Positions 14,315-64,000 of a DNA stretch of 64,000 nucleotides are shown here, one piece after another (position 1 is the stretch's first letter; each line of letters starts with the position of its first letter). Where the stretch lies: the NCBI RefSeq assembly GCF_045679555.1, contig NC_092091.1, positions 12,177,918-12,241,917 of the forward strand, in the 5' to 3' direction. This DNA comes from Salvelinus alpinus. Lineage: Eukaryota; Chordata; Actinopteri; Salmoniformes; Salmonidae. The position numbers were made by a program, and so were the translations under genes. A model generated the notes under the pieces. It had not been told where the DNA came from and ran no database searches. It saw only the letters and a list, made by a program, of their open reading frames with translations.

Positions 14315-15543
14315 ATTGAAGAACAAGGAACAGTCATCAAAGGTGGAAGAAAAATGAGCAAAGTCATTTCTAGCCACCAGATTCATGCTCTGAACGGGAA
14401 TATCTTGAATCATCATCATGGATAGCGAGACCTTCCACTTTAGACACACATTTCTCAAGTAAAGAATTATAGAAATGATCCCTGAAAGTATAGTCTTGGT
14501 GTAGAAGTTGTTGTGATCAAGGTGGAGCATCTTGAAAAGAGCATTTGCACCACCGGTTTGTGTTGCATTCTCAGCATCAACAGTTGTTGCAATCAAATTA
14601 TGATAATTATGGAGAATTGCAAACTACTAAAACCTATCTATGAAAAGCTGAGACTCTATCGAACATGCACATGTAACATGTTTTGCTCTATGACGCTCAC
14701 AAGCTACACAAGAGTTGTTAGAAGGTACAGGGTTCTTCTACGTAGAAGATCAAAGGAAGGTCAAAGGTTGTCCTGAAAGGAAAATGGTAAAACACCTCAT
14801 TGTGAAGCTAAAATTCAGGGCTGGACATGGAGATAAATGAAAGTCAGAAAACTAAAAAGAAGATTTATGCTGGGGTCTCAGGACTGATTCTATATTCTGA
14901 TTCTATTCTATTCTATTTTATTTTTGTGGAATTCTACCCCCTTTTAAACATTGTGTGTTTTAGCTATAGACGTATGGGTTGTACCATCAGATTTGTCTTT
15001 GTCTTCCACATCCATTGGTACCAAGAGTTTGTCTGTGTGATTAACGGGAGCTGAGTTAGAGCTGTGTTCGTGAGACGAAGACGGATCCCGAAGGGACCAA
15101 GGCCGGGTTTTTTTTAATATTTTTTTTTTTTTACAAAAACATCTGTAGAAACAGAATGGTTTGAATTACAAACTACTAAAACCTATCTATGAAAAGCTGA
15201 GACTCTATCGAACATGCACATGTAACATGTTTTGCTCTATGACGCTCACAAGCTACACAAGAGTTGTTAGAAGGTACAGGGTTCTTCTACGTAGAAGATC
15301 AAAGGAAGGTCAAAGGTTGTCCTGAAAGGAAAATGGTAAAACACCTCAATGTGAAGCTAAATATAAGTGCTGGACATGGAGATAAATGAAAGTCGGAAAA
15401 CTAAAAAGAAGATTTATGCTGGGGTCTCAGGACTGATTCTATAGGATTTCTTTTATTAACAATAAGAATTTGGGAGACATTTCAGTAGGTTTTGTTGCAC
15501 ATAGTTAACATCCACTCAGAACATATTCCCTTCATCCATGTTC
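14315..15543. repeat. Chimeric 1,229-bp satellite unit (copy 2)
   Basis: Near-identical repeat of 6738-7965 with the same attct-rich fusion (about 14892-14922). The copies differ by a T-run base and a few substitutions, such as tttcttttatt at 15447 against tttattttatt. Confidence 0.85.
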
Positions 15544-18500
15544 ATTGAAGAACAAGGAACAGTCATCAAAGGTGGAAGAAAAATTAGCAAAGTCATTTCT
15601 AGCCACCAGATTCATGCTCTGAACGGGAATATCTTGAATCATCATCATGGATAGCGAGACCTTCCACTTTAGACACACATTTCTCAAGTAAAGAACTATA
15701 GAAATGATCCCTGAAAGTATAGTCTTGGTGTAGAAGTTGTTGTGATCAAGGTGGAGCATCTTGAAAAGAGCATTTGCACCACCGGTTTGTGTTGCATTCT
15801 CAGCATCAACAGTTGTTGCAATCAAATTATGTTAATTATGGAGAATTGCGAGGTTCCTCAAATTAGAAATATGGTCAACGATGCTGGTTGCCAACAGGTA
15901 AAATATGACCTAATGTTGGTGGACAGCCATCCATATTTCAAAGCCGGTTATTTTTGTGGAATTCTACCCCTTTTAAACATTGTGTGTTTTAGCTATAGAC
16001 GTAGGGGTTGTACCATCAGATTTGTCTTTGTCTTCCACATCCAGTGGTACCAAGAGTTTGTCTGTGTGATTAACGGGAGCTGAGTTAGAGCTGTGTTCGT
16101 GAGACGAAGACGGATCCCGAAGGGACCCAGGCCGGGTTTCTTTTCTTTCTTTCTTTTTTATTTTTTTACAAAAACATCTGTAGAAACAGAATGGTTTGAT
16201 TTACAAACTACTAAAACCTATCGAACATGCACATGTAACATGTTTTGCTCTATGACGCTCACAAGCTACACAGGAGTTGTTAGAAGGTACAGGCTTCTTC
16301 TACGTAGAATATCAAAGGAAGGTCAAAGGTTGTCCTGAAAGGAAAATTGTAAAACACCTCATTGTGAAACTAAATATAAGGGTTGGACATGGAGATAAAT
16401 GAAAGTCGGAAAACTAAAAAGAAGATTTATGCTGGGGTCTCAGGACTGATTCTATAGGATTTATTTTATTACCGATAAGAATTTTGGAGACTTTTCAGTA
16501 GTTTTTGTTGTACATGGTTAACATCCACTCAGAACATATTCCCTTCATCCATGTTCATTGAAGAACAAGGAACAGTCATCAAAGGTGTAAGAAAAATGAG
16601 CAAAGTCATTTCTAGCCACCAGATTCATGCTCTGAACGGGAATATCTTGAATCATCATCATGGATAGCGAGACCTTCCACTTCAGACACACATTTCTCAA
16701 GTAAAGAACTATAGAAATGATCCCTGAAAGTATAGTCTTGGTGTAGAAGTTGTTGTGATCAAGGTGGAGCATCTTGAAAAGAGCATTTGTACCACCGGTT
16801 TGTGTTGCATTCTCAGCATCAACAGTTGTTGCAATCAAATTATGATAATTATGGAGAATTGCGAGGTTCCTCAAATGAGAAATATGGTCAACGATGCTGG
16901 TTGCCAACAGGTAAAATATGACCTAATGTTGGTGGACAGCCATCCATATTTCAAAGCCGGTTATTTTTGTGGAATTCTACCCCCTTTTAAACATTGTGTG
17001 TTTTAGCTATAGACGTATGGGTTGTACCATCAGATTTGTCTTTGTCTTCCGCATCCAGTGGTACCAAGAGTTTGTCTGTGTGATTAACGGGAGCTTGAGT
17101 TAGAGCTGTGTTCGTGAGACGAAGACGGATCCCGAAGGGACCCAGACCGTTTTTTTTTCTTCGTTTTTTTTACAAAAACATCTGTAGAAACAGAATGGTT
17201 TGAATTACAAACTACTAAAACCTATCTATGAAAAGCCGAGACTCTATCGAACATGCACATGTAACATGTTTTGCTCTATGACGCTCACAAGCTACACAAG
17301 AGTTGTTAGAAGGTACAGGCTTCTTCTACGTAGGATATCAAAGGAAGGTCAAATGTTGTCCTGAAAGGAAAATGGTAAAACACCTCATTGTGAAACTAAA
17401 TATAAGGGTTGGACATGGAGATAAATGAAAGTCGGAAAACTAAAAAGAAGATTTATGCTGGGGTCTCAGGACTGATTCTATAGGATTTATTTTATTACCG
17501 ATAAGAATTTTGGAGACTTTTCAGTAGTTTTTGTTGTACATGGTTAACATCCACTCAGAACATATTCCCTTCATCCATGTTCATTGAAGAACAAGGAACA
17601 GTCATCAAAGGTGAAAGAAACATGAGCAAAGTCATTTCGAGCCACCAGATTCATGCTCTGAACGGGAATATCTTGAATCATCATCATGGATAGTGAGACC
17701 TTCCACTTTAGACACACATTTCTCAAGTAAAGAACTATAGAAATGCTCCCTGAAAGTATAGTCTTGGTGTAGAAGTTGTTGTGATCAAGGTGGAGCATCT
17801 TGAAAAGAGCTTTTGCACCACCGGTTTGTGTTGCATTCTCAGCATCAACAGTTGTTGCAATCAAATTATGTTAATTATGGAGAATTGCGAGGTTCCTCAA
17901 ATGAGAAATATGGTCAACGATGCTGGTTGCCAACAGCTAAAATATGACCTAATGTTGGTGGACAGCCATCCATATTTCAAAGCCGGTTATTTTTGTGGAA
18001 TTCTACCCCTTTTAAACATTGTGTGTTTTAGCTATAGACGTATGGGATGTACCATCAGATTTGTCTTTGTCTTCCGCATCCAGTGGTACCAAGAGTTTGT
18101 CTGTGTGATTAACGGGAGCTGAGTTAGAGCTGTGTTCGTGAGACGAAGACGGATCCCGAAGGGACCCAGGCCGTTTATTTTTTTATTTTTACAAAAACAT
18201 CTGTAGAAACAGAATGGTTTGAATTACAAACTACTAAAACCTATCTATGAAAAGCTGAGACTCTATCGAACATGCACATGTAACATGTTTTGCTCTATGA
18301 TGCTCACAAGCTACACAAGAGTTGTTAGAAGGTACAGGGTTCTTCTACGTAGAAGATCAAAGGAAGGTCAAAGGTTGTCCTGAAAGGAAAATGGTAAAAC
18401 ACCTCATTGTGAAGCTAAAATTCAGGGCTGGATATGGAGATAAATGAAAGTCGGAAAACTAAAAAGAAGATTTATGCTGGGGTCTCAGGACTGATTCTAT

Positions 18501-19622
18501 AGGATTTATTTTATTAACAATAAGAATTTGGGAGACATTTCAGTAGGTTTTGTTGTACATGGTTAACATCCACTCAGAACATATTCCCTTCATCCATGTT
18601 CATTGAAGAACAAGGAACAGTCATCAAAGGTGGAAGAAAAATGAGCAAAGTCATTTCTAGCCACCAGATTCATGCTCTGAACGGGAATATCTTGAATCAT
18701 CATCATGGATAGCGAGACCTTCCACTTTAGAGACACATTTCTCAAGTAAAGAACTATAGAAATGATCCCTGAAAGTATAGTCTTGGTGTAGAAGTTGTTG
18801 TGATCAAGGTGGAGCATCTTGAAAAGAGCATTTGCACCACCGGTTTGTGTTGCATTCTCAGCATCAACAGTTGTTGCAATAAAATTATGTTAATTTTGGA
18901 GAATTGCGAGGTTCCTCAAATGAGAAATATGGTCAACGATGCTGGTTGCCAACAGGTAAAATATGACCTAATGTTGGTGGACAGCCATCCAAATTTCAAA
19001 GCCGGTTATTTTTGTGGAATTCTACCCCCTTTTAAACATTGTGTGTTTTAGCGATAGACGTATGGGTTGTACCATCAGATTTGTCTTTGTCTTCCGCATC
19101 CAGTGGTACCAAGTGTTTGTCTGTGTGATTAACGGGAGCTGAGTTAGAGCTGTGTTCGTGAGACGAAGACGGATCCCGAAGGGACCCAGGCCGGGTTTTT
19201 ATTTTATTTTTACAAAAACATCTGTAGAAACAGAATGGTTTGAATTACAAACTACTAAAACCTATCTATGAAAGGCTGAGACTCTATCGAACATGCACAT
19301 GTAACATGTTTTGCTCTATGACGCTCACAAGCTACACAAGAGTTGTTAGAAGGTACAGGGTTCTTCTACGTAGAAGATCAAAGGAAGGTCAAAGGTTGTC
19401 CTGAAAGGAAAATGGTAAAACACCTCAATGTGAAGCTAAATATAAGTGCTGGACATGGAGATAAATGAAAGTCGGAAAACTAAAAAGAAGATTTATGCTG
19501 GGGTCTCAGGACTGATTCTATAGGATTTATTTTATTAACAATAAGAATTTGGGAGACATTTCAGTAGTTTTTGTTGTACATGGTTAACATCCACTCAGAA
19601 CATATTCCCTTCATCCATGTTC

Positions 19623-20204
19623 ATTGAAGAACAAGGAACAGTCATCAAAGGTGGAAGAAAAATGAGCAAAGTCATTTCTAGCCACCAGATTCATGCTCTG
19701 AACGGGAATATTTTGAATCATCATCATGGATAGCGAGACCTTCCACTTTAGACACACATTTCTCAAGTAAAGAACTATAGACATGATCCCTGAAAGTATA
19801 GTCTTGGTGTAGAAGTTGTTGTGATCAAGGTGGAGCATCTTGAAAAGAGCATTTGCACCACCGGTTTGTGTTGCATTCTCAGCATCAACAGTTGTTGCAA
19901 TAAAATTATGTTAATTTTGGAGAATTGCGAGGTTCCTCAAATGAGAAATATGGTCAACGATGCTGGTTGCCAACAGGTAAAATATGACCTAATGTTGGTG
20001 GACAGCCATCCATATTTCAAAGCTGGTTATTTTTGTGGAATTCTACCCCCTTTTAAACATTGTGTGTTTTAGCTATAGACGTATGGGTTGTACCACCAGA
20101 TTTGTCTTTGTCTTCCTCATCCAGTGGTACCAAGAGTTCGTCTGTGTGATTAAGTCAAAAAAATGTAGAGGTTTTTGCTGTGGTCTCAAGACTGATAGGG
20201 ACTG
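19623..20204. repeat. Terminal, degenerate satellite unit
   Basis: The last unit runs normally to gtgtgattaa (20154). It then continues with a diverged match to the unit's far end: gtcaaaaaaatgtagagg and gtggtctcaagactgatag resemble agtcggaaaactaaaaag and ggggtctcaggactgattc. About 360 bp between these points are missing. Unrelated sequence follows, so this is the right edge of the array. Confidence 0.7.
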
Positions 20205-22366: not shown

Positions 22367-25279
22367 TTAGGAGGCGTCTTGTGACCGTAGCGTACGTATA
22401 GGTATGTATGGCAGGACCAACTCGGAAAGATAGGTAGGAGCAAGCCCATGTAACGCTTTATAGGTTAACAGTAAAACCTTGAAATCAGCCCTTGCCTTAA
22501 CAGGAAGCCAGTGTAGGGAAGCTAGCACTGGAGTAATATGGACAAATTTCTTGGTTCTAGTCAGGATTCTAGCAGCCGTATTTAGCACTAACTGAAGTTT
22601 ATTTAGTGCTTTATCCGGGTAGCCGGAAAGTAGAGCATTGCAGTAGTCTAACCTAGAAGTAACAAATGTATGGATTAATTTTTCTGCATAATTTTTGGAC
22701 AGAAAATTTCTGATTTTTGCAATGTTACGTAGATGGAAAAAAGCTGTCCTTGAAACAGTCTTGATATGTTCGTCAAAAGAGAGATCAGGGTCAAGAGTAA
22801 CGCCGAGGTCCTTCACAGTTTTATTTGAGACGACTTTACAACCATCAAGATTAATTGTCAGATTTAACAGAAGATCTCTTTGTTTCTTGGGACCTAGAAC
22901 AAGCATCTCTGTTTTGTCCGAGTTTAAAAGTAGAAAGTTTGCAGCCATCCACTTCCTTATGTCTGAAACACAGGCTTCTAGCGAGGGCAATTTTGGGGCT
23001 TCACCATGTTTCATTGAAATGTACAGCTGTGTGTCATCCGCATAACAGTGAAAGTTAACATTATGTTTTCGAATAACATCCCCAAGAGGTAAAATATATA
23101 GTGAAAACAATAGTGGTCCTAAAACGGAACCTTGTGGAACACCGAAATGTACAGTTGATTTGTCAGAGGACAAACCATTCACAGAGACAAACTGATATCT
23201 TTCCGACAGGTATGATCTAAACCAGGCCAGAACTTGTCCGTGTAGACCAATTTGGGTTTCCAGTCTCTCCAAAAGAATGTGGTGATCGATGGTGTCGAAG
23301 GCAGCACTAAGGTCTAGTAGCACGAGGACAGATGCAGAGCCTCGGTCTGACGCCATTAAAAGGTCATTTACCACCTTCACAAGTGCAGTCTCAGTGCTAT
23401 GATGGGGTCTAAAACCAGACTGAAGCATTTCGTATACATTGTTTGTCTTCAGGAAGGCAGTGAGTTGCTGCGCAACAGCTTTTTCAAAAAAATTTGAGAG
23501 CAATGGAAGATTGGATATAGGCCGATAGTTTTTTATATTTTCCGGGTCAAGGTTTGGCTTTTTCAAGAGAGGCTTTATTACTGCCACTTTTAGTGAGTTT
23601 GGTACACATCCGGTGGATAGAGAGCCGTTTATTATGTTCAACATAGGAGGGCCAAGCACATGAAGCAGCTCTTTCAGTAGTTTAGTTGGAATAGGATCCA
23701 GTATGCAGCTTGAAGGTTTAGAGGCCATGATTATTTTCATCATTGTGTCAAGAGATATAGTACTAAAACACTTAAGTGTCTCTCCCGATCCCAGGCCCTG
23801 GCAGAGCTGTGCAGATCCAGGAAAGCTAAGCCCTGGAGGAATATGCAGATTTAAAGAGGAGTCTGTAATTTGCTTTCTAATGATCATGATTTTTTCCTCA
23901 AAGAAGTTCATGAATTTATTACTGCTGAAGTGAAAGCCATCCTCTCTTGGGGAATGCTGCTTTTTAGTTAGCTTTGCAACAGTATCAAAAATAAATTTTG
24001 GATTGTTCTTATTTTCCTCAATTAAGTTGGAAAAGTAGGATGATCGAGCAGCAGTGAGGGCTCTTCGGTACTGCACGGTACTGTCTTTCCAAGCTAGTCG
24101 GAAGACTTCCAGTTTGGTGTGGCGCCATTTCCGTTCCAATTTTCTGGAAGCTTGCTTCAAAGCTCGGGTATTTTCTGTATACCAGGGAGCTAGTTTCTTA
24201 TGACAAATGTTTTTCGTTTTTAGGGGTGCAACTGCATCTAGGGTATTGCGCAAGGTTAAATTGAGTTCCTCAGTTAGGTGGTTAACTGATTTTTGTCCTC
24301 TGACGTCCTTGGGTAGGCAGAAGGAGTCTGGAAGGGCGTCAAGGAATTTTTGTGTTGTCTGAGAATTTATAGTACGACTTTTGATGCTCCTTGGTTGGGG
24401 TCTGAGCAGATTATTTGTTGCGATTGCAAACGTAATAAAATGGTGGTCCGACAGTCCAGGATTATCAGGAAAAACATTAAGATCTACAACATTTATTCCA
24501 TGGGACAAAACTAGGTCCAGAGTATGACTGTGGCAGTGAGTAGGTCCAGAGACATGTTGGACAAAACCCACTGAGTCGATGATGGCTCCGAAAGACTTTT
24601 GGAGTGGGTCTGTGGACTTCTCCATATGAATATTAAAATCACCAAAAATTAAAATATGATCTGCTATGACTACAAGGTCTGATAGGAATTCAGGGAACTC
24701 AGAGAGGAATGCTGTATATGGCCCAGGAGGCCTATAAACAGTAGCTATAAAAAGTGATTGAGTAGGCTGCATAGATTTCATGACTAGAAGCTCAAAAGAC
24801 GAAAACGTCATTTTTTTTTTTGTAAATTGAAATTTGCTATCATAAATGTTAGCAACACCTCCGCCTTTGCGGGATGCACGGGGGATATGGTCACTAGTGT
24901 AACCAGGAGGTGAGGCCTCATTTAACACAGTAAATTCATCAGGCTTAAGCCATGTTTCAGTCAGGCCAATCACATCAAGATTATGATCAGTGATTAGTTC
25001 ATTGACTATAACTGCCTTTGAAGTAAGGGATCTAACATTAAGTAACCCTATTTTGAGATGTGAGGTATCACGATCTCTTTCAATAATGGCAGGAATGGAG
25101 GAGGTCTTTATCCTAGTGAGATTGCTAAGGCGAACACCGCCATGTTTAGTTTTGCCCAACCTAGGTCGAGGCACAGACACAGTCTCAATGGGGATGGCTG
25201 AGTTGACTACACTGACTGTGCTATTGGCAGACTCCACTAAGCTGGCAGGTTGGCTAACAGCCTGCTGCCTGGCCTGCAC
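22367..25279 (-). CDS. LINE endonuclease-reverse transcriptase, long open frame
   Basis: 970 codons. An AP-type endonuclease spans about residues 76-285: NVRSLTSK near 81, LTETWLKP with E107, GDFNIH at 213-218, and the terminal SDHHF at 277-281 with its D-H pair. A reverse transcriptase spans about 565-800: [36 protein letters not shown] with D656, [13 protein letters not shown] and CYADDTQLY with YADD at 746-749. The catalytic residues I can see are present. The frame ends at RSQDAS. Just beyond, 22300-22366 still encodes [13 protein letters not shown] and FLWNGLP in another frame, so a small deletion near 22370 costs the last 60-70 residues. The true start may lie upstream because the first ATG is not at a clear domain edge. 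This is the element's replication protein and would act on target DNA and the element's own RNA. It is a mobile-element gene, not a host gene. Confidence 0.9.
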
Positions 25280-25637
25280 CCTATTTCATTGTGGAGCTAA
25301 AGGAGTTAGAGCCCTATCTATGTTAGTAGATAAGATGAGAGCACCCCTCCAGCTAGGATGGAGTCCGTCACTCCTCAGCAGGTCAGGCTTGGTCCTGTTT
25401 GTGGGTGAGTCTCAGAAAGAGGGCCAATTATCTACAAATTCTATCTTTTGGGAGGGGCAGAAAACAGTTTTCAACCAGCGATTGAGTTGTGAGACTCTGC
25501 TGTAGAGCTCGTCACTCCCCCTAACTGGGAGGGGGCCAGAGACAATTACTCGATGCCGACATCTTTCTAGCTGATTTACAGGCTGAAGCTATGTTGTGCT
25601 TGGTGACCTCTGACTGTTTCATCCTAACATCGTTGGG
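25280..25637 (-). pseudogene. LINE esterase-like (SGNH) domain remnant
   Basis: Read on the minus strand from 25637: PNDVRMKQSEVTKHNIASAC, a small frame break near 25560, then RHRVIVSGPLPVRGSDELYS, VDNWPSF, a stop codon, DSPTNRTKPDLLRSDGLHPSW and a further stop before the 970-codon frame. The SGPLP and DGLHPS blocks fit the C-terminal half of the SGNH-type esterase domain described in CR1-group LINEs (family knowledge). DGLH would hold the catalytic Asp-His pair. The N-terminal catalytic block is absent because of the 5' truncation. In this copy it is broken by two stops and one frameshift. Confidence 0.65.
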
Positions 25638-42825: not shown

Positions 42826-44070
42826 TCAGACTGCAGCTGAACATATGCGCAAATCTAGTAGGAGAACACTGACCGACGTGGACCAATCTCCAGAGTGAGA
42901 TGAACCTCTCAGACCGAAGATTCCACAAAGAACAGGGCAAATCAGAGCCTCACATCACCAGCTTCACGTAAATACAATGCATTGCTTTTCCGAATGAGCG
43001 ATCATAAGTGGCATATGTATTTATGTGAGAATATCTTCCCAGGTCCGATAAAGACCAATGTTCCTTAGTCTTCCTTCCAAACCCCCCTTCTCTTCTCTCT
43101 GAATCTATCATGTTAACCAAACTGTTTTTGTTTAGTTTAATCACGTAATAATAATTACAGAGAATTTATTTGATAAAATAACAGTCTTCAACTTTAATGA
43201 TGCAAAAGACACGACACCACTGAGTGTTAATTTCCCTCCAACAGAGTTAATTTAACTCCTGAATCAACACTGGAAATATAACACTGAAAAATCAACACTA
43301 GAAATGTTACAATGAAAAATCAACACTGGCCAATTTGCTTTGTACTTAGTACCGACACAAATGAGTCACATTTCCCAGATATTTGGGTCTTGACTCCGTG
43401 TTCTTGTCTCCAATCTGCAGCTGCTGATGGATTTGTCTCCATTGGGTCATAAAAAATGTACTGAAATAGCAAGTCTGCTATCGGTTTTCAACATCAAAGA
43501 CTTACGGTTAACAATATGATCGCACATTGGCTTAATGTCTTGCTGCATCTCACTCAATCTCCAGGGGTAACTGTCATAGAGGTGTCATTGTGGAACGAGT
43601 GCCAGCGTTCGATGCTTGATTTGCCTGTGATAGTGTTGTGCTGCAAGCCTTTCCTCTATGGTGCCTCGCCAACACTCTCCTCGGTCTCCATGCAGGGAAA
43701 GAGGGGTGATGTAGGCCATATGAAATGTGACCCTGGCACGCTGTACAGCTGTTGTATAACGGTTCATTAGAATCGAATCATTCACCCGAGCTGTCTGAGC
43801 TAAGGGACGACTGTCACATTGTCCTCGTTATGACTTCAGAGTAGCTGCACCGAAAGAAGGAAAAAAACATGTTTTATCACCTCTTAAGAAATTAAGAGAC
43901 GTGGCAGATAAAAAAAATTAAAAAACATTTTATTGAGGCAATGTTGTTTATGCCAGTGTTGCTGTGTAAAGACAAGCAAGGCTTCACCTTTCTGTTTTTA
44001 CAGGTACAAGAGGTGGCTGGAGCGTTTTCAACATGTGTGAGCTAATAACCCAAAGGCAAAAAATCAGAGG
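42826..44070. other. Non-coding interval with AACACTG-rich patch
   Basis: No gene recognised. 43220-43335 carries repeated aacactg/aacacta words (gtgttaatttccctcc, tcaacactggaaatataaca, aaaatcaacactgg), the same kind of patch as at 33015-33070 and 49080-49240. 43900-43935 is A/T-rich. Short ORFs at 43516-43770 on both strands show no recognisable content. Confidence 0.45.
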
Positions 44071-45049
44071 GACATTGTTAAGCACTGGGCCAGTGTCCAT
44101 GGATAGAAAGGGGGATCAGGGGACATTGTTAAGCACTGGGCCAGTGTCCATGGATAGAAAGGGGGATCAGGGGACATTGTTAAGCACTGGGCCAGTGTCC
44201 ATGGATAGAAAGGGGGATCAGGGGACATTGTTAAGCACTGGGCCGGTGTCCATGGATAGAAGGGGGATCAGGGGACATTGTTAAGCAGTGGGCCAGTGTC
44301 CATGGATAAAAAGGGGGATCAGGGGACATTGTTAAGCACTGGGCCAGTGTCCATGGATAGAAAGGGGGATCATGGGACATTGTTAAGCACTGGGCCAGTG
44401 TCCATGGATAGAAAGGGGGATCAGGGGACATTGTTAAGCACTGGGCCAGTGTCCATGGATAGAAGGGGGATCAGGGGACATTGTTAAGCAGTGGGCCAGT
44501 GTCCATGGATAAAAAGGGGGATCAGGGGACATTGTTAAGCACTGGGCCGGTGTCCATGGATAGAAGGGGGATCAGGGGACATTGTTAAGCAGTGGGCCAG
44601 TGTCCATGGATAAAAAGGGGGATCAGGGGACATTGTTAAGCACTGGGCCAGTGTCCATGGATAAAAAGGGGGATCAGGAGACATTGTTAAGCACTGGGCC
44701 AGTGTCCATGGATAAAAAGGGGGATCAGGGGACATTGTTAAGCACTGGGCCAGTGTCCATGGATAAAAATGGGGATCAGGGGACATTGTTAAGCAGTGGG
44801 CTGGTGTCCATGGATAGAAGGGGGATCAGGGGACATTGTTAAGCACTGGGCCAGTGTCCATGGATAGAAGGGGGATCGGGGGACATTGTTAAGCACTGGG
44901 CCAGTGTCCATGGATAGAAAGGGGATCAGGGGACATTGTTAAGCACTGGGCCAGTGTCCATGGATAAAAAGGGGATCAGGGGACATTGTTAAGCACTGGG
45001 CCAGTGTCCATGGATAGAAGGGGGGTCGGGGTACATTGTTAAGCACTGG
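44071..45049. repeat. 51-bp minisatellite, about 19 copies
   Basis: Unit gacattgttaagcactggg, then ccagtgtccatggatagaaa, then gggggatcagg. Starts fall at 44071, 44122, 44173 and so on. Variants: agcactggg or agcagtggg, ggccagtg or ggccggtg or ggctggtg, gatagaa or gataaaa, and a one-base G-run difference giving 50-bp units. Because 51 is divisible by three and the unit lacks stops in some frames, long fake ORFs appear on both strands. I see no evidence of coding. Confidence 0.95.
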
Positions 45050-46319
45050 GCCAGTATGACACACTCCTCCAAGGGGGCATAGTGGGTGTGCTAGCCAGGA
45101 AAAGGATGAGGATACGGTAGCGCGCAGATAATTCAACCTTTAGGCTTCGCCACATCAAGCTCATGGCCTTTCACCTACTAAAGAGAGCCCTCCTGAACCG
45201 TTCACTTCTACCTCTTCTCCATTATGTACGCTGTTTTCAGATATTGAGGTATTTTTAGACAGACTCTGCTTCTATAAAGGATGCTGGTATACAATGCGTT
45301 GGTCCGAAGCCAACTCGAACCTTGGCTCATTCAGCCCCAGCCAGAATAAATCAAGAGAGAAGCATAAATGGATGTCCTGGCTGGCTGGAGTGCAGTACAG
45401 TCCATGTGGGGTGCTGGTCAGGAACTTTTTTGCTGAGACACTTGTGTTCTATATTTACTCCATTTGAACACATTCTTCTGTGTTGGTGGGGGAGGATGAG
45501 GAGGAGAGATATTCTCGCTTCCAAAGCCTTGCGTCTTGTCACGTATACAACATTCCACACGCAGATAGCTACGCAGCAAACAGAGTACCCCCACCTCCCA
45601 TTCCAAGTCCACTTCAGGCTACAAACAGAGTGTGTGTGTGTGTGGGTGGGCGGTGGGGGGGGGGGGGGAGGGATTGTGCGGCGCTTACCCTATGTTTGTG
45701 TGCATGTGTAACCTCTGACCTCATATAAATCCTGCTGTAGAAGGCAGAATGGCAAACCACTCACCTTTAACTTGGCTATTTCTATTGTTCAGGGATATTT
45801 ATAACTGGATGGGTTTGATTTCCCTGCAGTGGCCTAAGCCTGGCCTTCCTGTGAGAGAGCAGGGCAGACTGAAGTTAGTAACTCTGATTGGATCCAGATT
45901 CCTTTGTCTCAAACTCAGAATCTTTGAGCCCTCACAGAATCCAACACAATGCTATAACCTTGTTGTTGTATTACCCTTGTTACAAAAGCCAGTGATAACT
46001 GAACCCACGTGTGCCATTGTGATGCAACAGGACAGGTGATAGTAGTGACCCTTTAATTCTGTATGTTCTCTGCCTATATTTCATGGTTTGCCACTTTATG
46101 AGAGGACGTGTTACATGTGTTTGAAATACGCATAAATGTTTTCTATTCTATTTTTTTTATAGCTGTTTACAATGTTGTGGCCCCCTATCACCACAAATTT
46201 CCTGCATTGGTATCAGAAGTCTGATGGCACTATGGCGTCTATTAAATTACCAACATTTTTATTTTAAAAAATGTGTTGTCGTTAAGGGTTCTACTACCAA
46301 ATATATTTATATTTAATTA
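45050..46319. other. Non-coding interval with TG and G runs
   Basis: No gene or named repeat. A TG run with a following G-rich tract (about 45630-45672) is a simple repeat. ORFs at 45322-45711 and 45749-46039 have no recognisable domains. Confidence 0.45.
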
Positions 46320-55004: not shown

Positions 55005-55123
55005 CTACTGGTTCTCGGCGGCTTGGTTCTTTCTCTCCTGCCAGTCTTTCTGCCGCAAGCTCAGTTCTGCCTCAGTGAAGGACGCTGGGCCCCAGTTAGT
55101 GATTTTCTGAGGCCCCTTCGAAC
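55005..55123 (-). CDS. swap70: swap70 last coding exon
   Basis: 119 coding bases: [20 protein letters not shown], then [19 protein letters not shown] and TAG. Acceptor is ttgttttctcag (AG at 55125-55124). This is the conserved SWAP70 C-terminus. The 3' UTR continues below 55005. Confidence 0.92.
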
Positions 55124-58100
55124 CTGAGAAAACAAAATCAGAAAGTTCACTCACATCAGTGCGGACAAAGGAAAGTAAATGAGGAAAGGAAGCCACTTTA
55201 GATTATTGAGATGCACCCAGAGAGGGTGAACAAAAAAACAACACAACAGAGGGAAGAATGAAGAGAGAGTATTGATAAAAGGAGGAAAGCGTACAGTAAT
55301 ATAGTGTTGTGTTACCTGGTTGAACGAGGCGGACTAATCCCTCATGGTGGGCCACTTTATGTTTCCAGGTCCTGGTGTTATTTGCTGCATCCTCCAGTTT
55401 CTGCACTACCTCCTGTGACAAACAAAGAAAATACGATATCAGTTGTTTTTTTGATAGTGAAACAGGACAATCCATGGCTCATCTGTAGAACTCTACTGCC
55501 ACCTACAATTGTCATCTGGTACTATTTGCTTCACAAGGCACCCACCGTTCTAGCACCCCCTACATGTATAAGTAGGTATTGTTCTAGCACCACAACTCAA
55601 GCATCCCTGTTCCAGCAGAACAAAATTAGTCCTACTCCTGAACTGAAAATAATTGAGAATCTTTGTTCAAAGTACATTTTAGTCCAGAAATAAGCCGTGA
55701 ATCTTTGTCCTGGAAACCGTCCCTAAAACATGTCTCACCTGGTACTGCTCCAGTGCCCCCTGCCTCTCTTTCTCTAGCTGCTCCAGCTGCAGCATGGCGG
55801 CCTGCAGGGCATTCTCCTTGGCCGTTCCCTCCTTCCGCAGCTCCTGCTTCTCCACCTCTGTCTCAGAGATGGCCCTCTGCTGGTGGAGGTGGATCTGTTC
55901 CAGCTCAGCCCGCTTGACAGCCTCCTCCTCTAGTAACCTGGAGAGACGTACTTTAGGTACAGGGAACAGCCTCCTCTAGTAACCTGGAGAGACGTACATT
56001 AAGTACAGGGAACAGCCTCCTCCTCTAGTAACCTGGAGAGACGTACTTTAGGTACAGGGAACAGCCTCCTCTAGTAACCTGGAGAAACGTACATTAAGTA
56101 CAGGGAACAGCCTCCTCCTCTAGTAACCTGGAGAGACGTACTTTAGGTACAGGGAACAGCCTCCTCTAGTAACCTGGAGAGACGTACTTTAGGTACAGGG
56201 AACAGCCTCCTCTAGTAACCTGGAGAGACGTACATTAAGTACAGGGAACAGCCTCCTCCTCTAGTAACCTGGAGAGACGTACTTTAGGTACAGGGAACAG
56301 CCTCCTCCTCTAGTAACCTGGAGAGACGTACTTTAGGTACAGGGAACAGCCTCCTCCTCTAGTAACCTGAAGAGACGTACTTTAGGTACAGGGAACAGCC
56401 TCCTCCTCTAGTAACCTGGAGAGACGTACTTTAGGTACAGGGAACAGCCTCCTCTAGTAACCTGGAGAGACGTACTTTAGGTACAGGGAACAGCCTCCTC
56501 TAGTAACCTGGAGAGACGTACATTAAGTACAGGGAACAGCCTCCTCCTCTAGTAACCTGGAGAGACGTACTTTAGGTACAGGGAACAGCCTCCTCTAGTA
56601 ACCTGGAGAGACGTACTTTAGGTACAGGGAACAGCCTCCTCTAGTAACCTGGAGAGACGTACTTTAGGTACAGGGAACAGCCTCCTCCTCTAGTAACCTG
56701 GAGAGACGTACATTAAGTACAGGGAACAGCCTCCTCTAGTAACCTGGAGAGACGTACTTTAGGTACAGGGAACAGCCTCCTCTAGTAACCTGGAGAGACG
56801 TACATTAAGTACAGGGAACAGCCTCCTCCTCTAGTAACCTGGAGAGACGTACTTTAGGTACAGGGAACAGCCTCCTCTAGTAACCTGGAGAGACGTACTT
56901 TAGGTACAGGGAACAGCCTCCTCTAGTAACCTGGAGAGACGTACTTTAGGTACAGGGAACAGCCTCCTCCTCTAGTAACCTGGAGAGACGTACATTAAGT
57001 ACAGGGAACAGCCTCCTCTAGTAACCTGGAGAGACGTACTTTAGGTACAGGGAACAGCCTCCTCTAGTAACCTGGAGAGACGTACTTTAGGTACAGGGAA
57101 CAGCCTCCTCCTCTAGTAACCTGGAGAGACGTACATTAAGTACAGGGAACAGCCTCCTCTAGTAACCTGGAGAGACGTACATTAAGGACAGGGAACAGCC
57201 TCCTCCTCTAGTAACCTGGAGAGACGTACATTAAGTACAGGGAACAGCCTCCTCTAGTAACCTGGAGAGACGTACTTTAGGTACAGGGAACAGCCTCCTC
57301 TAGTAACCTCGAGAGACGTACTTTAGGTACAGGGAACAGCCTCCTCCTCTAGTAACCTGGAGAGACGTACATTAAGTACAGGGAACAGCCTCCTCTAGTA
57401 ACCTGGAGAGACGTACTTTAGGTACAGGGAACAGCCTCCTCCTCTAGTAACCTGGAGAGACGTACTTTAGGTACAGGGAACAGTTAGTTCAGAATGTGTA
57501 ATATACAAACAAAAGGGATATGTTGATCAAAACAATTATATTGCATACATATCCATCCTGGGGGTATACACACAAACATACAAATTCCCATTGAGAACAC
57601 AATGTGAAAAGTGCTGAGCCCAGAGAAGCACAAATGTCAGCACAGAGGAAGGAAGGGTTTCTGGATGGGAGGGACTGTTGCCTATGTCTATGTAGGAAAC
57701 ATGTAGATGCCTTGGTGTGTCTGTGTGGCCCCCTTGTGTCTCAGTGTATCCACAGAAATGGAATTGTGTGTGTGTGTGTGTGTGTCACCCTCTTCCACAT
57801 TGACTCACTCCACTTGGCAGACAATTACAGTGACTCTAGTCAGAGAGACAATCAAGTCCAGGGATCAAGAGTGTGCATGTGTGCCTATATGCCCGCTTAT
57901 GTGTCTGTGTGTTGAGCACCGACCGGGCCTGGAGCCTGCGGACCGTCTCCTCGTCCTGCCTGGCACGTTTCTCGTCCTCCAGGGCGTCCTCCAGGCGGTG
58001 GTACATGTCCTCCAGCTCATGGACGCGCTGCAGGTACTGCTCCAGCTCACTGGACTTCTGAGCCACCTGCTCCTCCATCTCCTGTCGCACCTGAAGACCA

Positions 58101-61100
58101 GCGACAAGACAATGTAGAAAGAGCACCACAGTTCACCTGAAGACCAGCGACAAGACAATGTAGAAAGAGCACCACAGTCCACCTGAAGACCAGCGACAAG
58201 ACAATGTAGAAAGAGCACCACAGTCCACCTGAAGACCAGCGACAAGACAATGTAGAAAGAGCACCACAGTCCACATGAAGACCAGCGACAAGACAATGTA
58301 GAAAGAGAACCGCAGTTCACCTGAGGACCAGCGACAAGACAATGTAGAAAGAGCACCACAGTCCACATGAAGACCAGCGACAAGACAATGTAGAAAGAGC
58401 ACCACAGTTCACCTGAGGACCAGCGACAAGACAATGTAGAAAGAGCACCACAGTCCACCTGAAGACCAGCGACAAGACAATGTAGAAAGAGAACCGCAGT
58501 CCACCTGAAGACCAGCGACAAGACAATGTAGAAAGAGCACCACAGTCCACATGAAGACCAGCGACAAGACAATGTAGAAAGAGCACCACAGTCCACATGA
58601 AGACCAGCGACAAGACAATGTAGAAAGAGCACCACAGTCCACATGAAGACCAGCGACAAGACAATGTAGAAAGAGAACTGCAGTCCACATGAAGACCAGC
58701 GACAAGACAATGTAGAAAGAGCACCACAGTCCACATGAAGACCAGCGACAAACAATGTAGAAAGAGAACCGCAGTCCACCTGAAGACCAGCGACAAGACA
58801 ATGTAGAAAGAGCACTACAGTTCTGTAAAACTAAATCTATTGGCGCTCTTGGACCTGAGGAGTCAGTGGTTAGTAGATTATAGCACTGATAGAAGGGGTT
58901 GGTTGGTTAGCAACAAAACCAACGCGTGCACAACTATGGAGAAAAACAGACGGAGTTGGCTTAAGACTGTTGACAACAGGAAAAGTATATTTCGTCTCCA
59001 AATGTTTCTTGAAAACATACATTTGCACAATGAGCACTTGTTGTCTCTCAAATATGTTGTTACAGTTTGTTAGCTAGCTAGTGAATCCGTCAAAACAAGA
59101 CATGGTATCAATAACGAGATACATTATGTGACCAAAAGTATGTGGACACCTGCTCGTCAAACATTTCATTTCAAAATCATTTGCTGCTATAACAGCCTCC
59201 ACTCTTCTGGAAAGGCTTTCCACTAGATGTTAGAACATGGCTGCGGGGACATGCTTCCATTCAGCCACAGGTGCATTAGTGAGGTTGGGCACTGATGTTA
59301 GGCAATTAGGCCTAGCTTGCAGTCAGCTTTCCAATTCATCCCAAAGGTGTTCAATAGAGTTGAGGTCAGGGCTCTGTGCAGGCCAGTCAAGTTCTTCCAC
59401 ACCGATCTCAACAAACCATTTCTGTATGGACCTCACTTTGTGCATGGGGACATTGTCATGCTGAAACAGGAAAGGGCCTTCCCCAAATTGTTGCCACAAA
59501 GTTAGAAGTAAAGAATCGTCTAGAATGTCTTTGTATGCTGTAGCTTTAAGATTTCCCTCCACTGGATCTAAGGAGCCTAGCCCGAACCATGAAAAACATC
59601 CCCAGATCATTATCCCTCCTCCACCAAACTTTACAGTTGGCACTATGCATTGGGGCAGGTAGCGTTCTCCTGGCATCCACCAAACCCAGATTCGTCTGTC
59701 AGACTGCCAGATGGTGGAGAGTGATTGATCACTCCAGAGAACGCATTTCCACTGCTCCAGTGTCCAATGGCAGTGAGCTTTACAGCACTCCAGCCGACGC
59801 TTAGCATTGCGAATGGTGATTTTAGGTTTGTGTGCGGCTGCTCAGCCATGGAAACCCATTTCATGAAGCTCCCGACGAACAGTTATTGTGCTGACGTTGC
59901 ATTCCAGAGGATAGTTTGGAACTTGGTAGTGAGTGTTGCAACCGAGGACGGATGATTTTTACGCACTTTAACACTCAGCGGTCCTGTTCTGTGAGCTTGA
60001 GTGGCCTACCACTTCGAAGCTGAGCCGTTGTCGATCCTAGACGTTCCCACTTCACAATAAGAGCACTTACAGTTGTCCGGGGCAGTTTTAGCAGGGCAGA
60101 AATTTGCTTAACTAAATTGTTGTAAAGGTGGCATTCTATGACAGTGCCACGTTGAAAGTCACTGAGCTCTTCAGTAACGCCATTCTTCTGCCAATGTTTG
60201 TCTATGGAGATTGCGAGGATGTGTGCTCAATTTTATACTCCTGTCAGCAACAGGTGTGGCTGAAATAGCCCGAATCCGCTAATTTGAAGGGGTGTCCACA
60301 CACTTTTGTTTATATAGTGTGAAACGGGCTGAAACGAGCCACCTACGTTTCCACACATGGCAGCTTCTTGTCCTTGTTGCCAGCTATTTGACCATTCATT
60401 GATGCACGTTGTCAGCCAAGCAGTCTATTTAACTCACTTATTGAATCTAATATGGCTGAACTATCCCTTTAATATAACTAAATTTAACCCATTGCATCTT
60501 CTCTTTCATATATTTATTGGAGACCCATTGTCTCTTATAACCACTCATTTGATTTTATATCCTATGCCCACTAACTTCCTACCATTCAGTCCTACCCTTC
60601 AGGCTATGAAAATGAATTATGTGATGATTGGAAACACTTGCCATCGCTAATGCCAATCTGTAAACCTTCCGTTCTTTTTTTTTCTACATATAACAAAGAA
60701 AAGAGGAAACAACCCTTCTGGATACTTCCTGAAACAGAGCAGACATTGGCCTGAGATAATGAAATAATGTAACCTTATTGATGGCAGTCCTATGAACGGA
60801 AGATGACATTTATAAAGTGTGTCAGTAGGATGTGTGGAATAAATGTCAAAGGTTATGAGCTTAGGGGTATAGATGGGAGGATGAAAGAACTAGAATGTTG
60901 CAATCATTTTCATGGAGCCAAGAATTTACTGAATAAATTAAGAGAACCTGCTGAACAAGCTGAATCAGTGGTTAGGGACAACTTCTACCTACTCCTTGAA
61001 GTCTCACATGGTGCAGGACAACTTCTACCTACTCCTTGAAGTCTCACATGGTGCAGGACAACTTCTACCTACTCCTTGAAGTCTCACATGGTGCAGGACA

Positions 61101-61760
61101 ACTTCTACCTACTCCTTGAAGTATCACATGGTGCAGGACAACTTCTACCTACTCCTTGAAGTATCACATGGTGCAGGACAACTTCTACCTACTCCTTGAA
61201 GTCTCACATGGTGCAGGACAACTTCTACCTACTCCTTGAAGTCTCACATGGTGCAGGACAACTTCTACCTACTCCTTGAAGTCTCACATGGTGCAGGACA
61301 ACTTCTACCTACTCCTTGAAGTCTCACATGGTGCAGGACAACTTCTACCTACTCCTTGAAGTCTCACATGGTGCAGGACAACTTCTACCTACTCCTTGAA
61401 GTCTCACATGGTGCAAGACAACTTCTACCTACTCCTTGAAGTCTCACATGGTGCAGGACAACTTCTACCTACTCTGTAATTCTGAAGTAGCCAGTGTAAG
61501 GTAAAATTTGCCAACTAAAAGTGTGAGGGGCAATTTTGTTAAAGTCAATTAAGTAGCCGGCCACATAAGGGGAAGTAGTCAGTGGTGAGTGTAGTTTAAA
61601 ATACAAACATATTCTCCTTTGACCGCTAAATTGTGAGTAGCTAGGTAGGTACCATTTTCTCCCTCTCCAGGTCCATCCTGTAGCGATCCTGTTGTTCAGT
61701 CTGGGTCTGCAGGCGTTTCCTCTCCTCCTCCGCCGCGTTGGCCGCCACCTCCTCTAGTTC
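55005..61760 (-). CDS. swap70: Switch-associated protein 70, C-terminal 229 residues (5 exons; 5' part outside window)
   Basis: Joining minus-strand exons 61760-61653, 58090-57924, 55937-55739, 55412-55316 and 55123-55005 gives 690 coding bases with matched phases (0, 0, 2, 0, 1), GT-AG introns throughout, no internal stop, and TAG at 55007-55005. The product is a long charged coiled coil ([20 protein letters not shown] at residue 1, [57 protein letters not shown] near 142-158) and then [19 protein letters not shown] and [14 protein letters not shown] near the end. ITNWGP.SFTEAEL identifies SWAP70 rather than its paralogue DEF6, which lacks this tail. Family knowledge: SWAP70 is a PH-domain protein that binds phosphoinositides, Rac and F-actin in membrane ruffles; the C-terminal tail is the actin-binding part. 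The EF-hand and PH regions must lie beyond 64000. Introns hold three minisatellites and a Tc1. Confidence 0.92.
55316..55412 (-). CDS. swap70: swap70 exon
   Basis: 97 bases, [20 protein letters not shown] then [12 protein letters not shown] and one base of Gly. Acceptor is tttgtcacag before GAGGTAG (55414-55413). Donor is CCAG followed by gtaaca (55315-55314). [10 protein letters not shown] is the conserved block before the tail. Confidence 0.92.
55739..55937 (-). CDS. swap70: swap70 exon, coiled coil
   Basis: 199 bases. It completes the Arg codon, then [40 protein letters not shown] and [20 protein letters not shown], ending ALEQYQ in phase 0 before gtgagaca. Acceptor is gtctctccag (AG at 55939-55938). 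The acceptor and the first ~20 exon bases are the first unit of the minisatellite 55918-57482. Confidence 0.92.
55918..57482. repeat. 46/49-bp minisatellite carrying the swap70 splice acceptor, 33 copies
   Basis: Unit on the plus strand: tagtaacctggagagacgta, then ctttaggtacagggaacagc and ctcctc (46 bp) or ctcctcctc (49 bp). A second version has acattaagtac. Counting tagtaacct gives 33 copies including the one at the exon edge (55931). On the minus strand each unit contains gtctctccag followed by gttactagaggagg, that is, the true acceptor with the first bases of the exon. All copies keep the AG; the copies at 56363 and 57303 have small changes next to it. Confidence 0.95.
57483..57923 (-). 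other. swap70 intron remainder with TG run
   Basis: Unique intron sequence between the minisatellite and the exon donor. A TG run lies at 57765-57785. Nothing else recognised. Confidence 0.6.
57924..58090 (-). CDS. swap70: swap70 exon, coiled coil
   Basis: 167 bases, entering in phase 0 with [20 protein letters not shown] and leaving two bases into an Arg codon after RRLQA. Donor is CCCG followed by gtcggtgc. Acceptor is ggtcttcag (AG at 58092-58091). The acceptor is the first unit of the 46-bp minisatellite 58091-58815, and GTG, the first codon, also occurs in the repeat. Confidence 0.92.
58091..58815. repeat. 46-bp minisatellite carrying the next swap70 splice acceptor, 16 copies
   Basis: Unit on the plus strand: ctgaagaccagcgacaagac, then aatgtagaaagagcaccaca and gtccac. 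Starts are every 46 bp from 58091 (one 45-bp unit near 58735). Seen on the minus strand, each unit ends ggtcttcag followed by gtg. Nine copies keep the acceptor (ctgaag or ctgagg on plus: 58091, 58137, 58183, 58229, 58321, 58413, 58459, 58505, 58780) and seven have atgaag, which removes it (58275, 58367, 58551, 58597, 58643, 58689, 58735). Confidence 0.95.
58816..59121 (-). other. swap70 intron
   Basis: Intron sequence between the minisatellite and the Tc1 copy. Nothing recognised. Confidence 0.5.
59122..60320 (-). mobile_element. Tc1-like transposon relic in swap70 intron
   Basis: Left tip after TA (59120-59121): cattatgtgaccaaaagtat with gtggacacc. Right tip: ggggtgtccacacacttttg with tttatatagtgtg, an imperfect inverted repeat. 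The right TA is not preserved. The minus-strand transposase C-terminal half is open from 59676: [40 protein letters not shown] and [15 protein letters not shown] (DD34E). The rest, to 60200, is decayed with stops. It lies in the same strand sense as swap70. The fragment at 32862-32950 belongs to the same family. Confidence 0.88.
60321..60976 (-). other. swap70 intron
   Basis: AT-rich intron sequence. No repeat or gene recognised. Confidence 0.5.
60977..61474. repeat. 40-bp minisatellite in swap70 intron, 12.4 copies
   Basis: Unit gacaacttctacctactcct then tgaagtctcacatggtgcag, repeated every 40 bp from 60977 to 61456 with a partial copy to 61474. Very uniform: two units have tatcac for tctcac and one has gcaagac for gcaggac. 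The donor of the upstream exon lies about 180 bases to the right. This array does not contain a swap70 splice site. Confidence 0.95.
61475..61652 (-). other. swap70 intron, donor side
   Basis: Intron stretch next to the donor at 61652-61651. Nothing recognised. Confidence 0.5.
61653..61760 (-). CDS. swap70: swap70 exon (first in window), coiled coil
   Basis: 108 bases, 36 codons, phase 0 at both ends. It encodes [20 protein letters not shown] followed by [16 protein letters not shown]. Acceptor is attggtcag before GAACTAG (AG at 61762-61761). Donor is ATG followed by gtaccta (61652-61651). No minisatellite touches this acceptor, unlike the next two exons. Confidence 0.9.
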
Positions 61761-63536
61761 CTGACCAATAGCAGAGGAGACAGTCGTTACATAATTGACG
61801 ACAGATACACAATCTTCTCTCTGTCAAAGTTGATTGTGTTTCTGAATTTAAAAATCACTTCCTGAATTGAAAATTAAATCTATCCAGTGCAATGCATTAA
61901 CTAAATTCTTAACCTAATGGATATGCGGCTTTGTAAACAAAACTATCTGAAAAGCTCCTAAAGATGAATTGCAAGCGCAGCACTGGCATCTGACTTGGCG
62001 TCATCGCAGCACAAAAAAAATACGTATTGTAAAGATTTCCCAATGTCATCTTGTGCTGACAAAGCATAGAAAGTAATATATCTTAGTGAGTTGTATCATC
62101 TTTTTCTTTGTAAATGAGCTATTTTTACTAAACTTTTTTTAGGGGCATTATTTAGTTGGTACATCCATTATTGGAGTTGTAAATTAATTATATGTACACA
62201 GTGACTATTGAAAAAAAAAAAATACTTAGATGCCTAATGAGCTTAGTTCTACTGTAACACCCCCATCAGAACCCAAAATCTAAGTTTGTTTTACTCCATT
62301 GTTTGTAAACAATGTAAATCAACATTGTGTGCAGACTCAAAACATGGTTAAAACCATCATTTTGATCTCACAGATGGTCAGTCCCTGCATCCATAGCTCT
62401 GTCTATGAATTTGAGAGTGGTTACATTTCTAGAGCCCCATAGCTCAGGTGTTTGCCAACACAGTGGCAGGGTCATTTTGTTATTGTTTGAACTGCAGATT
62501 TCCCCTTGGTTGTTAAATAAGATACATGTATGTTTGAGGAATTTTAATTATGAGATTTCTGTTGTTTAAATTTGGCGCACTGCACTTTCACTGGCTGTTG
62601 TCATATCATCCCGTTAACGGGATTGCAGCCATAAGAAGTTTTAATAGGTGATTCATCTAACATTTGACTCTTTCCATGCAGCTGTGACTTGTCATTTGAC
62701 CTTTCTCGTTCGTTACTCACTCACCATGGCAGGTTAGTGTGAAGTGACCAGCCAATCACAGTGGCTATTGTGTACACGTGAATCCAAGGTCAAAAAGGTT
62801 TAAATGGGGTTGTACCCTCAATCTCCAGTCCTGTGTGTATCAGAGAGTACGAGAGACGGGGACTTGTTGCACCTCAATGGGAGAATGTCTGAACATTCAT
62901 TGTACCGCTACTCCTCGATGCATAATGAATGAACAACAAAAGAGAGATTGTTTCCTCGGGAAATCCAATGAATGTCCACGGCTACACTATATGTGTTACA
63001 TTGGACAATAAAGTTGTATTGTTGTATTGCAAGTCTCGTGTGAGTTTGTCCAAATGAATTGTCAAGGGTCTCATCTATAAGAGCTCAGCTACAATGGGTA
63101 TTGAGGACAAGCACTGGTATTGGAATGTACAGCACAATCTCTCTACCAATCTCTACAGCGTGAACAAAACGTTTTTTTGTTAGAACTATAAGAGTGAAAT
63201 GCAATGACCACATAAGACAACATTTATGAATGTTATTTCACTCATAACTGCCTTGTTAGTATAATCAGCTCAATAGGAGAATATTGTCACTATGTATTCC
63301 ATGTTTGTTTGCTGATGAGTGAAACGAGGAAACATTTAATTTAAGTGACATTTCATCCGTAATTAGAGACCCAACTGAGCAGCGATAATTGGATTTAAAC
63401 TGTCAAACTGCATCAGAAGGCCAGATTAAAGAACTTAAATCAGGATTAAGAGGTACTGTACAATTTAATCACGATTAACAGAGGTACTGTAGCTGGAAAA
63501 ACGAGTTAAATAGAAGTGACAGCGCAAGACAGGGTA
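61761..63536 (-). other. swap70 intron, no further exon seen
   Basis: I find no coiled-coil-encoding block on the minus strand here, so the next upstream exon should be beyond 64000. The A/T-rich stretch 62130-62230 has an A run. Confidence 0.5.
62335..62645. repeat. Probable dispersed salmonid repeat
   Basis: ccctgcatccatagctctgt, ctatgaatttgagagtgg, gaggaattttaattatgag, cactttcactggctgttgtc and atcccgttaacgggat are blocks I recall together in many salmonid introns. The central ccgttaacgg is a short palindrome. No coding content, family unnamed. Confidence 0.4.
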
Positions 63537-64000
63537 AGTTGAGCTGCGGGACAGGGTAAGTTGAGCTGCGGGACAGGATAAGTTGAGCTGCGGGACAGGA
63601 TAAGTTGAGCTGCGGGACAGGGGTGAGCTGAGCTGCGGGACAGGGGTGAGCTGAGCTGAGGGACAGGGGTGAGCTGAGCTGAGGGACAGGGGTGAGCTGA
63701 GCTGCGGGACAGGGTAAGTTGAGCTGCGGGACAGGATAAGTTGAGCTGCGGGACAGGATAAGTTGAGCTGCGGGACAGGGGTGAGCTGAGCTGCGGGACA
63801 GGGGTGAGCTGAGCTGAGGGACAGGGGTGAGCTGAGCTGAGGGACAGGGGTGAGCTGAGCTGAGGGACAGGGGTGAGCTGAGCTGAGGGACAGGGGTGAG
63901 CTGAGCTGAGGGACAGGGGTGAGCTGAGCTGAGGGACAGGGGTGAGCTGAGCTGAGGGACAGGGGTGAGCTGAGCTGAGGGACAGGGGTGAGCTGAGCTG
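63537..64000. repeat. 22-23-bp minisatellite running off the window
   Basis: About 20 units in two main versions: gggtaagttgagctgcggga with ca (22 bp) and ggggtgagctgagctgaggg with aca (23 bp). The first type dominates at 63537-63620 and 63700-63770, the second elsewhere and up to the edge. Alternation of types suggests block duplication. The right end is outside the window. Confidence 0.95.

Follow-up and report, generated by a model that had tools for sequence, protein, structure and literature searches.

Introduction

The mirages of amphioxus carry repeated AG/GT splice signals, and RT-PCR of their host genes gave regular splicing, which is reportedly undisturbed by the arrays, although the repeated signals could yield aberrant transcripts (PMC3087553). 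TnC and PGBD5 have been added to the amphioxus mirage genes (PMC3902484). Another reported property of mirages is that alleles differ in length. In human ABCA7, a VNTR of intron 18 consists of 25-bp repeats that include the exon 18 donor (PMC5954066). Two frameshift isoforms were reported at 14 ± 6 and 2 ± 1%, neither of them dependent on repeat length, and longer alleles showed more skipping of exon 19 and lower expression (PMC5954066). Cycloheximide substantially raised the stop-containing transcripts, while VNTR length was described as being without effect on decay (PMC5954066). We read the 2 ± 1% isoform as retention of one repeat unit and, since cycloheximide raised the transcripts with stops, 2% would understate the use of outer copies. 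The 844ins68 allele of CBS is a 68-bp duplication of the intron 7/exon 8 junction, of which the distal copy is strongly favoured; PMC2630376 uses the word 'donor' for this site, while the title of Romano 2002, which it cites, speaks of a 3′ splice site.

Tandem duplication can also generate introns. In human segmental duplications internal tandem repeats at exon edges have been described as forming new introns (PMC2812944), and intron birth from tandem AG/GT duplication is treated in Rogers 1989, Venkatesh 1999, Zhuo 2007 and Gao and Lynch 2009, as cited in PMC3087553. In sparid fish, minisatellites occur in introns of GH and MSTN-2, and one MSTN-2 allele adds a predicted intron 1 acceptor (PMC3045353). 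The minisatellites near alternative exons of C. elegans (PMC4039745), as portrayed there, are a different phenomenon. Our literature search, which was of partial coverage, returned boundary minisatellites from amphioxus and human, none from fish and none at two adjacent acceptors.

The swap70 exons and their surroundings

The window analysed is the whole 64,000-nt stretch of Salvelinus alpinus NC_092091.1, to which all coordinates refer, and the swap70 exons lie on its minus strand. Five exons, E to I, were joined via GT...AG introns (in sequences below a slash marks the splice junction):

61653..61760, minus strand: exon E, 108 nt, weak donor ATG/GTACCT, no array at its splice sites (joined frame, TRF)
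57924..58090, minus strand: exon F, 167 nt, starts GTGCGACAGG; its acceptor is the last unit of array 2 (joined frame)
55739..55937, minus strand: exon G, 199 nt, starts GTTACTAGAGGAGGAGGCTGT; its acceptor is the last of 33 (joined open frame)
55316..55412, minus strand: exon H, 97 nt, splice sites free of arrays (joined frame, TRF)
55005..55123, minus strand: exon I, 119 nt of coding sequence up to the stop, acceptor free of arrays (joined frame, TRF)

Once joined, the exons can be read without interruption for 229 codons to a stop, and many stops are found in the two other frames. Because this frame runs open across all five exons, the exon at 55937-55739 is taken to be real. Over 185 aa the joined product is 71% identical to the C-terminal part of a provisional human SWAP70 sequence. 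A comparison with the PDB gave no chain at E 0.01 and one with Pfam gave no family above its cut-off, so the name rests on the comparison with that human sequence; we take the gene to be swap70 and the exons to encode its C-terminal coiled coil. A search of the literature for swap70 together with salmonid found, by title and start of abstract, nothing on this locus. The intact 229-codon frame and the 71% identity suggest that selection for the correctly spliced product presumably continues.

The window holds several other repeats and elements. Positions 1-19805 carry 21 tandem copies of a U3 snoRNA gene on the minus strand (20 full and one cut by the window edge), spaced 0.68-1.23 kb apart; this cluster sits some 35 kb downstream of swap70. 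An open frame of 972 codons at 22367-25285 has the look of a reverse transcriptase and is presumably LINE-like. Outside the swap70 exons there is a 51-bp × 19.6 minisatellite (44063-45055). The intron between exons E and F contains a transposon remnant at 59140-60330, which we take to be Mariner/Tc1-like, with ORFs at 59323-59841 and 59975-60226 on the minus strand, and a nearly perfect (99%) 40-bp × 12.5 minisatellite at 60976-61474, in mid-intron and not at a splice site. A 23-bp × 20.9 array at 63528-64000, whose minus-strand units include acceptor-like pieces such as CACCCCTGTCCCTCAG, runs off the window; no exon could be assigned at its low edge.

A 33-unit minisatellite at the exon G acceptor

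55917..57483, minus strand: array 1, a 46/49-bp minisatellite with 33 AG/GT acceptor junctions (TRF and unit-by-unit parse)
55917..55920, minus strand: CTGT, junction microhomology, at the exon-side end of array 1; the intron-side end (57483-57480) has it too (flank comparison)

TRF delimits array 1 at 55917/55924-57483 with a period of 46, 33.0 copies and a score of 2560, alternative fits having periods of 95 and 141 bp. When the array is parsed by the exon start GTTACTAG, 33 acceptor junctions emerge, from 57451 down to 55937, the final one of which is the acceptor of exon G. Both TRF and the unit parse confirm the preliminary description, which had reported a 33-copy minisatellite repeating a swap70 acceptor with the true acceptor last. 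Its further statement that every unit contains gtctctccag is true of the AG/GT, which is kept at 33/33 junctions, but not of the exact word, which is found at 30/33, the three deviating acceptors reading CTCTCGAG, CTCTTCAG and GTTTCTCCAG.

Each unit combines 28 intron-derived nt with a stretch of 18 or 21 nt that agrees with the beginning of the exon and is made up of 14 or 17 nt plus the shared CTGT. The junctions are spaced by 49 bp in 14 cases and by 46 bp in 18 (n=32), a difference of one triplet in the exon-derived part, GAGGAGGAGG. The intron-derived part occurs in two versions, with CCTAAAG in 21/32 units and CTTAATG in 11/32, and only eight distinct sequences are present among the 32 units, which are thus homogenised. 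Six positions of the 28 intron-derived nt vary by substitution and, barring the triplet indel, none of the 21 exon-derived nt does; with a uniform distribution this absence would have P of about 0.035. As a sign of selection on the copies it is suggestive only, and the 3-nt indel falls in the same part. A higher-order repeat was considered since the best TRF score is at the 141-bp period, but it is not claimed, the string of unit types giving P 0.20 at lag 3; at lag 9 it gives P 0.049, uncorrected. No inverted repeats of ≥10 bp were found in array 1 or in array 2, described below.

The flanks of array 1 bear on its origin. The intron flank reads ...GAACTAA-CTGT-TCCCTG, the exon flank ...GGAGGAGG-CTGT-CAAGCG and the internal joints GGAGG-CTGT-TCCC, so that a duplication between two CTGT words fits flanks and joints exactly. 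The presence of exon bases in all units and of CTGT at both edges supports the earlier proposal that the array grew from the intron–exon boundary itself. The sequence shows that the segment from the intronic CTGT to just short of the exonic CTGT was repeated head to tail; the AG with its pyrimidine tract was carried along in it, as were the first bases of the exon, and the word AACTAAC was left out. The 4-bp CTGT match may have given rise to the first extra copy, through slippage or end joining, after which the units would have been spread and homogenised by unequal exchange. Removal of the 32 extra units leaves a host intron of 472 nt, against 1986 nt now, and the array-free precursor intron would be expected to be about 470 nt long and to end AACTAACTGTTCCCTGTACCTAAAGTACGTCTCTCCAG. 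At E 0.01, neither array 1 nor array 2 had a match elsewhere in the window.

A second array at the exon F acceptor

58088..58821, minus strand: array 2, a 46-bp minisatellite of 16 units, one of them 45 bp (TRF and unit parse)

The acceptor of the preceding exon is also carried by a repeat, which is absent from the preliminary description. The unit of array 2 is a pyrimidine-rich stretch followed by TCA[G/T] and GTG, and its last copy, reading ...GTCTTCAG/GTGCGACAG, is the exon F acceptor. Inner units read GTCTTCAG/GTGGAC or GTC[TC]TCAG/GTGAAC, while those without AG read CTTCATGTG. CAG/GTG is present in 9/16 units and CAT in 7/16; the AG is never lost in the last unit, which in a single array is not informative. 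At least the first three exon bases (GTG) lie within the unit. From any of the 15 outer positions, whether it has AG or is one of the seven that lack it, reading would meet a stop ahead of the natural one, often after long open stretches. A common origin of the two arrays is ruled out by their longest shared word, which is 9 bp (E 3.4). At the exon F acceptor a comparable duplication took place, with a unit unrelated to that of array 1.

Two consecutive swap70 acceptors are therefore carried by two unrelated minisatellites. No array is found at the acceptors of exons E, H and I or at the four visible donors. The TRF edges lie 13 bp (array 1) and 2 bp (array 2) from the acceptors. When the four arrays in the swap70 stretch had their low edges placed at random (200,000 trials, nine splice sites), two or more fell within 15 bp of a splice site in 0.5% of trials and within 25 bp in 1.4%, a test that was devised post hoc. 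As to what defines a mirage, the unit of array 1 spans the boundary, that of array 2 holds at least GTG of the exon, and AG/GT recurs in many units (33/33 in array 1, 9/16 in array 2). Array 1 is thus by definition a mirage-type array, as known here from the sequence of one assembly.

It could be that such arrays mark a duplicate gene in decay after genome duplication, its proper expression lost, or that array 1 is mis-assembled. The transposons and repeats of the window are plausibly those of a salmonid, and such a host would carry duplicate swap70 genes. The introns here are also crowded: besides the arrays at the two acceptors they contain a further minisatellite and the remnant of a transposon, and donors are weak. 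The five visible exons are open, however, with neither stop nor shift, the window contains no N, and the units are a mixture of eight sequence variants, not a single sequence repeated. It would seem very unlikely that decay or mis-assembly accounts for the locus.

Splice-site strengths and the possible use of outer acceptors

Acceptors and donors were scored in bits with approximate splice-site matrices, and branch-point-like words were compared with the consensus TACTAAC. In array 1, 32/33 acceptors score 7.75-8.11 bits and the copy with CGAG scores 1.70; outside the array region, about 3% of the AGs on the minus strand of the window reach the level of the array acceptors. The other swap70 acceptors score 3.66 (E), 7.54 (F), 10.43 (H) and 12.53 (I). 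The donor of exon G, CAG/GTGAGA, has the highest score of the four visible donors (10.89 bits), while those of exon F (CCG/GTCGGT, 3.83 bits, at 57924) and exon E (ATG/GTACCT, 2.85 bits, at 61653) are weak. Both weak donors are upstream of array-bearing acceptors.

The array also contains donor-like GTACGT sites, 22 preceded by AAA (5.8 bits) and 11 by AAT (5.6 bits), all of which outscore the native donors of exons E and F. The preliminary description had placed aaagtacgtctc in most units, and it was found in 22/33. It had also suggested that single repeats could be spliced as micro-exons of 32-35 bases; the donors for this are present, but with 32 or 35 nt such exons would be rather short to be recognised by exon definition. 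Pseudo-exons of several units, 50-200 nt long, could be formed by 90 of the 528 possible acceptor–donor pairs. From each of the 32 outer acceptors, reading continues for 9-10 codons to the same TAA and thus ends inside the first unit; the readthrough is LLE(E)EAVPCT, as had been foreseen from the LLEEEAV and PC(T) codons, with 18/32 lacking one E and one copy reading PCP. On paper, then, mis-splicing into array 1 is well possible.

57483..57489, minus strand: AACTAAC, the best branch-point-like motif, 6/7 to TACTAAC (motif scan)

A feature overlooked in the preliminary description is that AACTAAC lies just outside array 1, ahead of the outermost acceptor only. Its branch A is at −33 of that acceptor, and the array begins with its final C. 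Of the words near the nine acceptors compared, it comes closest to the branch-point consensus; 6/7 matches to TACTAAC occur at 1.0 per kb on the minus strand, giving 0.034 expected per such zone. It is absent from the inner units, and those examined contain only TACCTAA or TACTTAA (4-5/7) at −17. Between AACTAAC and the true acceptor at 55937 are 1547 nt with 164 AGs, 63 of them CAG or TAG. With AACTAAC before the outermost copy, a first-AG rule would pick the outermost acceptor and give a dead transcript, while the pairing of sites across the exon would predict the last acceptor.

These features could be taken to mean that splicing often uses the outer acceptors, or pseudo-exons of several units with GTACGT as their donor, that the resulting transcripts meet TAA and decay, and that copy number therefore sets swap70 output, a reading we regard as unlikely. 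We know of no copy-number variation at this swap70 locus, which counts against it. What speaks for it are the TAA reached from 32/32 outer acceptors, the GTACGT donors (5.6-5.8 bits) that exceed those of exons E and F, with 90/528 pairs giving exons of 50-200 nt, and the branch-point-like motif, which favours the outermost copy. The 31-bp VNTR of CBS reportedly spans an exon edge. A reference title in PMC2630376 associates that VNTR with reduced enzyme activity, and the longer alleles of the donor-bearing ABCA7 VNTR had lower expression, with stop transcripts raised when decay was blocked (PMC5954066). Outer-copy use in ABCA7 was nevertheless about 2%, constant with length, and length had no reported effect on decay (PMC5954066), while amphioxus mirages are reported to splice regularly (PMC3087553, PMC3902484). 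The suggestion that copy number tunes swap70 output, as had been made for this locus, is not supported.

RNA structure was considered as a selector of the acceptor. Predicted local unpairedness (RNAplfold-type, window 150, span 100) is 0.41 at the last acceptor of array 1, inside the range of the other 32 (0.33-0.54), and structure was rejected in this role. In array 2 the last acceptor is the most open (0.63, against 0.26-0.45), which is one case.

Discussion

The most plausible reading, to which we give a probability of about 0.6, is that array 1 is a mirage-type boundary minisatellite at which the last acceptor is chosen, with slight leakage from the outer copies, and that it is mostly tolerated ballast and not a regulator. 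The exon-adjacent acceptor would be chosen because it is the only copy paired across an exon of normal size (199 nt) with a strong donor, CAG/GTGAGA. The outer copies would act as intron, and a few percent of transcripts may take an outer acceptor, meet TAA and decay. From the precedents of ABCA7, CBS and amphioxus the exon-adjacent acceptor is expected to win and to be mainly used, with slight leakage. Counting against the choice of the last acceptor are the position of AACTAAC, the near-equal scores of 32/33 acceptors, and predicted openness, which does not single out the last copy. The rise of stop-containing ABCA7 transcripts under cycloheximide (PMC5954066) and the aberrant transcripts considered possible for mirages (PMC3087553) point the same way.

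The same AG/GT in each unit would allow a different course, in which splicing to an outer acceptor creates a donor anew (GTTACT or GTGAAC) and this donor is then respliced inward, so that the arrays are removed stepwise and the message is identical at any copy number. This agrees with the AG/GT of 33/33 units in array 1 and 9/16 in array 2, and two rebuilt donors of array 2, ATG/GTGAAC (5.05) and ATG/GTGCGA (5.18), are stronger than the native ATG/GTACCT (2.85). The commoner one, ATG/GTGGAC (2.49), is however weaker than the native donor, as is CCG/GTTACT of array 1 (2.32 against 3.83). Single units of 46-49 nt are below the usual length of vertebrate introns, and since exon G itself begins with GTTACT the process would have no obvious end. 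Stepwise removal would appear highly improbable.

A switch by exon skipping would call for the arrays to weaken the acceptors of exons F and G so that both are skipped. Loss of either exon alone shifts the frame, while loss of both (366 nt) leaves E-H in frame to the natural stop, minus 122 coiled-coil residues; two exons summing to a multiple of three is, however, one chance in three. In ABCA7 the following exon was skipped more often the longer the boundary VNTR was (PMC5954066). Although we give such a switch very little credence, the in-frame skipping of F and G, together with the ABCA7 precedent, makes a joint-skipping isoform worth seeking. It is also distinctly unlikely that the two captured acceptors form a joint length-dependent switch, in which both exons are bypassed (E-H in frame, −122 residues), or that stepwise AG/GT removal buffers copy number.

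The locus provides a natural test of acceptor choice, as a row of 33 near-identical acceptors separates the good branch-point-like motif from the real exon, and each wrong choice would be flagged by a stop codon. Duplicated sites have been used to ask whether the acceptor closest to the branch point or the one closest to the exon is taken. A natural case with two copies is CBS 844ins68 (PMC2630376). The locus would also extend the boundary minisatellites of amphioxus type to a ray-finned fish, with two in one gene.

Compared with the known systems, the arrays are most like the amphioxus mirages of the globin genes BflGb6/BflGb9, Adh3, TnC and PGBD5, in which a boundary is duplicated in the manner of a minisatellite and part of the exon is within the unit (PMC3087553, PMC3902484). 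The BflGb6 mirage is of the acceptor type with AG/GT in many units, as in array 1 (PMC3087553), but has units of 150-160 bp in 6 and 3 copies in two haplotypes, against 33 units of 46/49 bp here. The Adh3 mirage has units of 10-72 bp. All these mirages belong to a cephalochordate, whereas swap70 is from a ray-finned fish and has a second array at the neighbouring acceptor. In the ABCA7 VNTR (PMC5954066) the first unit holds the real splice site and, as here, near-identical sites are stacked and an outer copy means a frameshift and premature stop; unlike the swap70 arrays, the ABCA7 repeat concerns a donor, has 25-bp units, starts at the exon edge and comes with known length variation and expression data. 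CBS 844ins68 shares the stacked acceptors, of which the distal, exon-adjacent one is favoured there, but has two copies and is not an array (PMC2630376). As with the introns from AG/GT duplication (PMC2812944), tandem AG/GT can create splice options, though the swap70 units adjoin an existing intron and no new one is shown. The GH and MSTN-2 repeats of sparids also lie in fish introns and vary in length; as presented in PMC3045353 they are inside introns, are not said to hold a real splice site and have few copies (1R, 2R and 4R alleles). The kind of array is thus already known, and the swap70 case is notable for its copy number and for the two adjacent acceptors.
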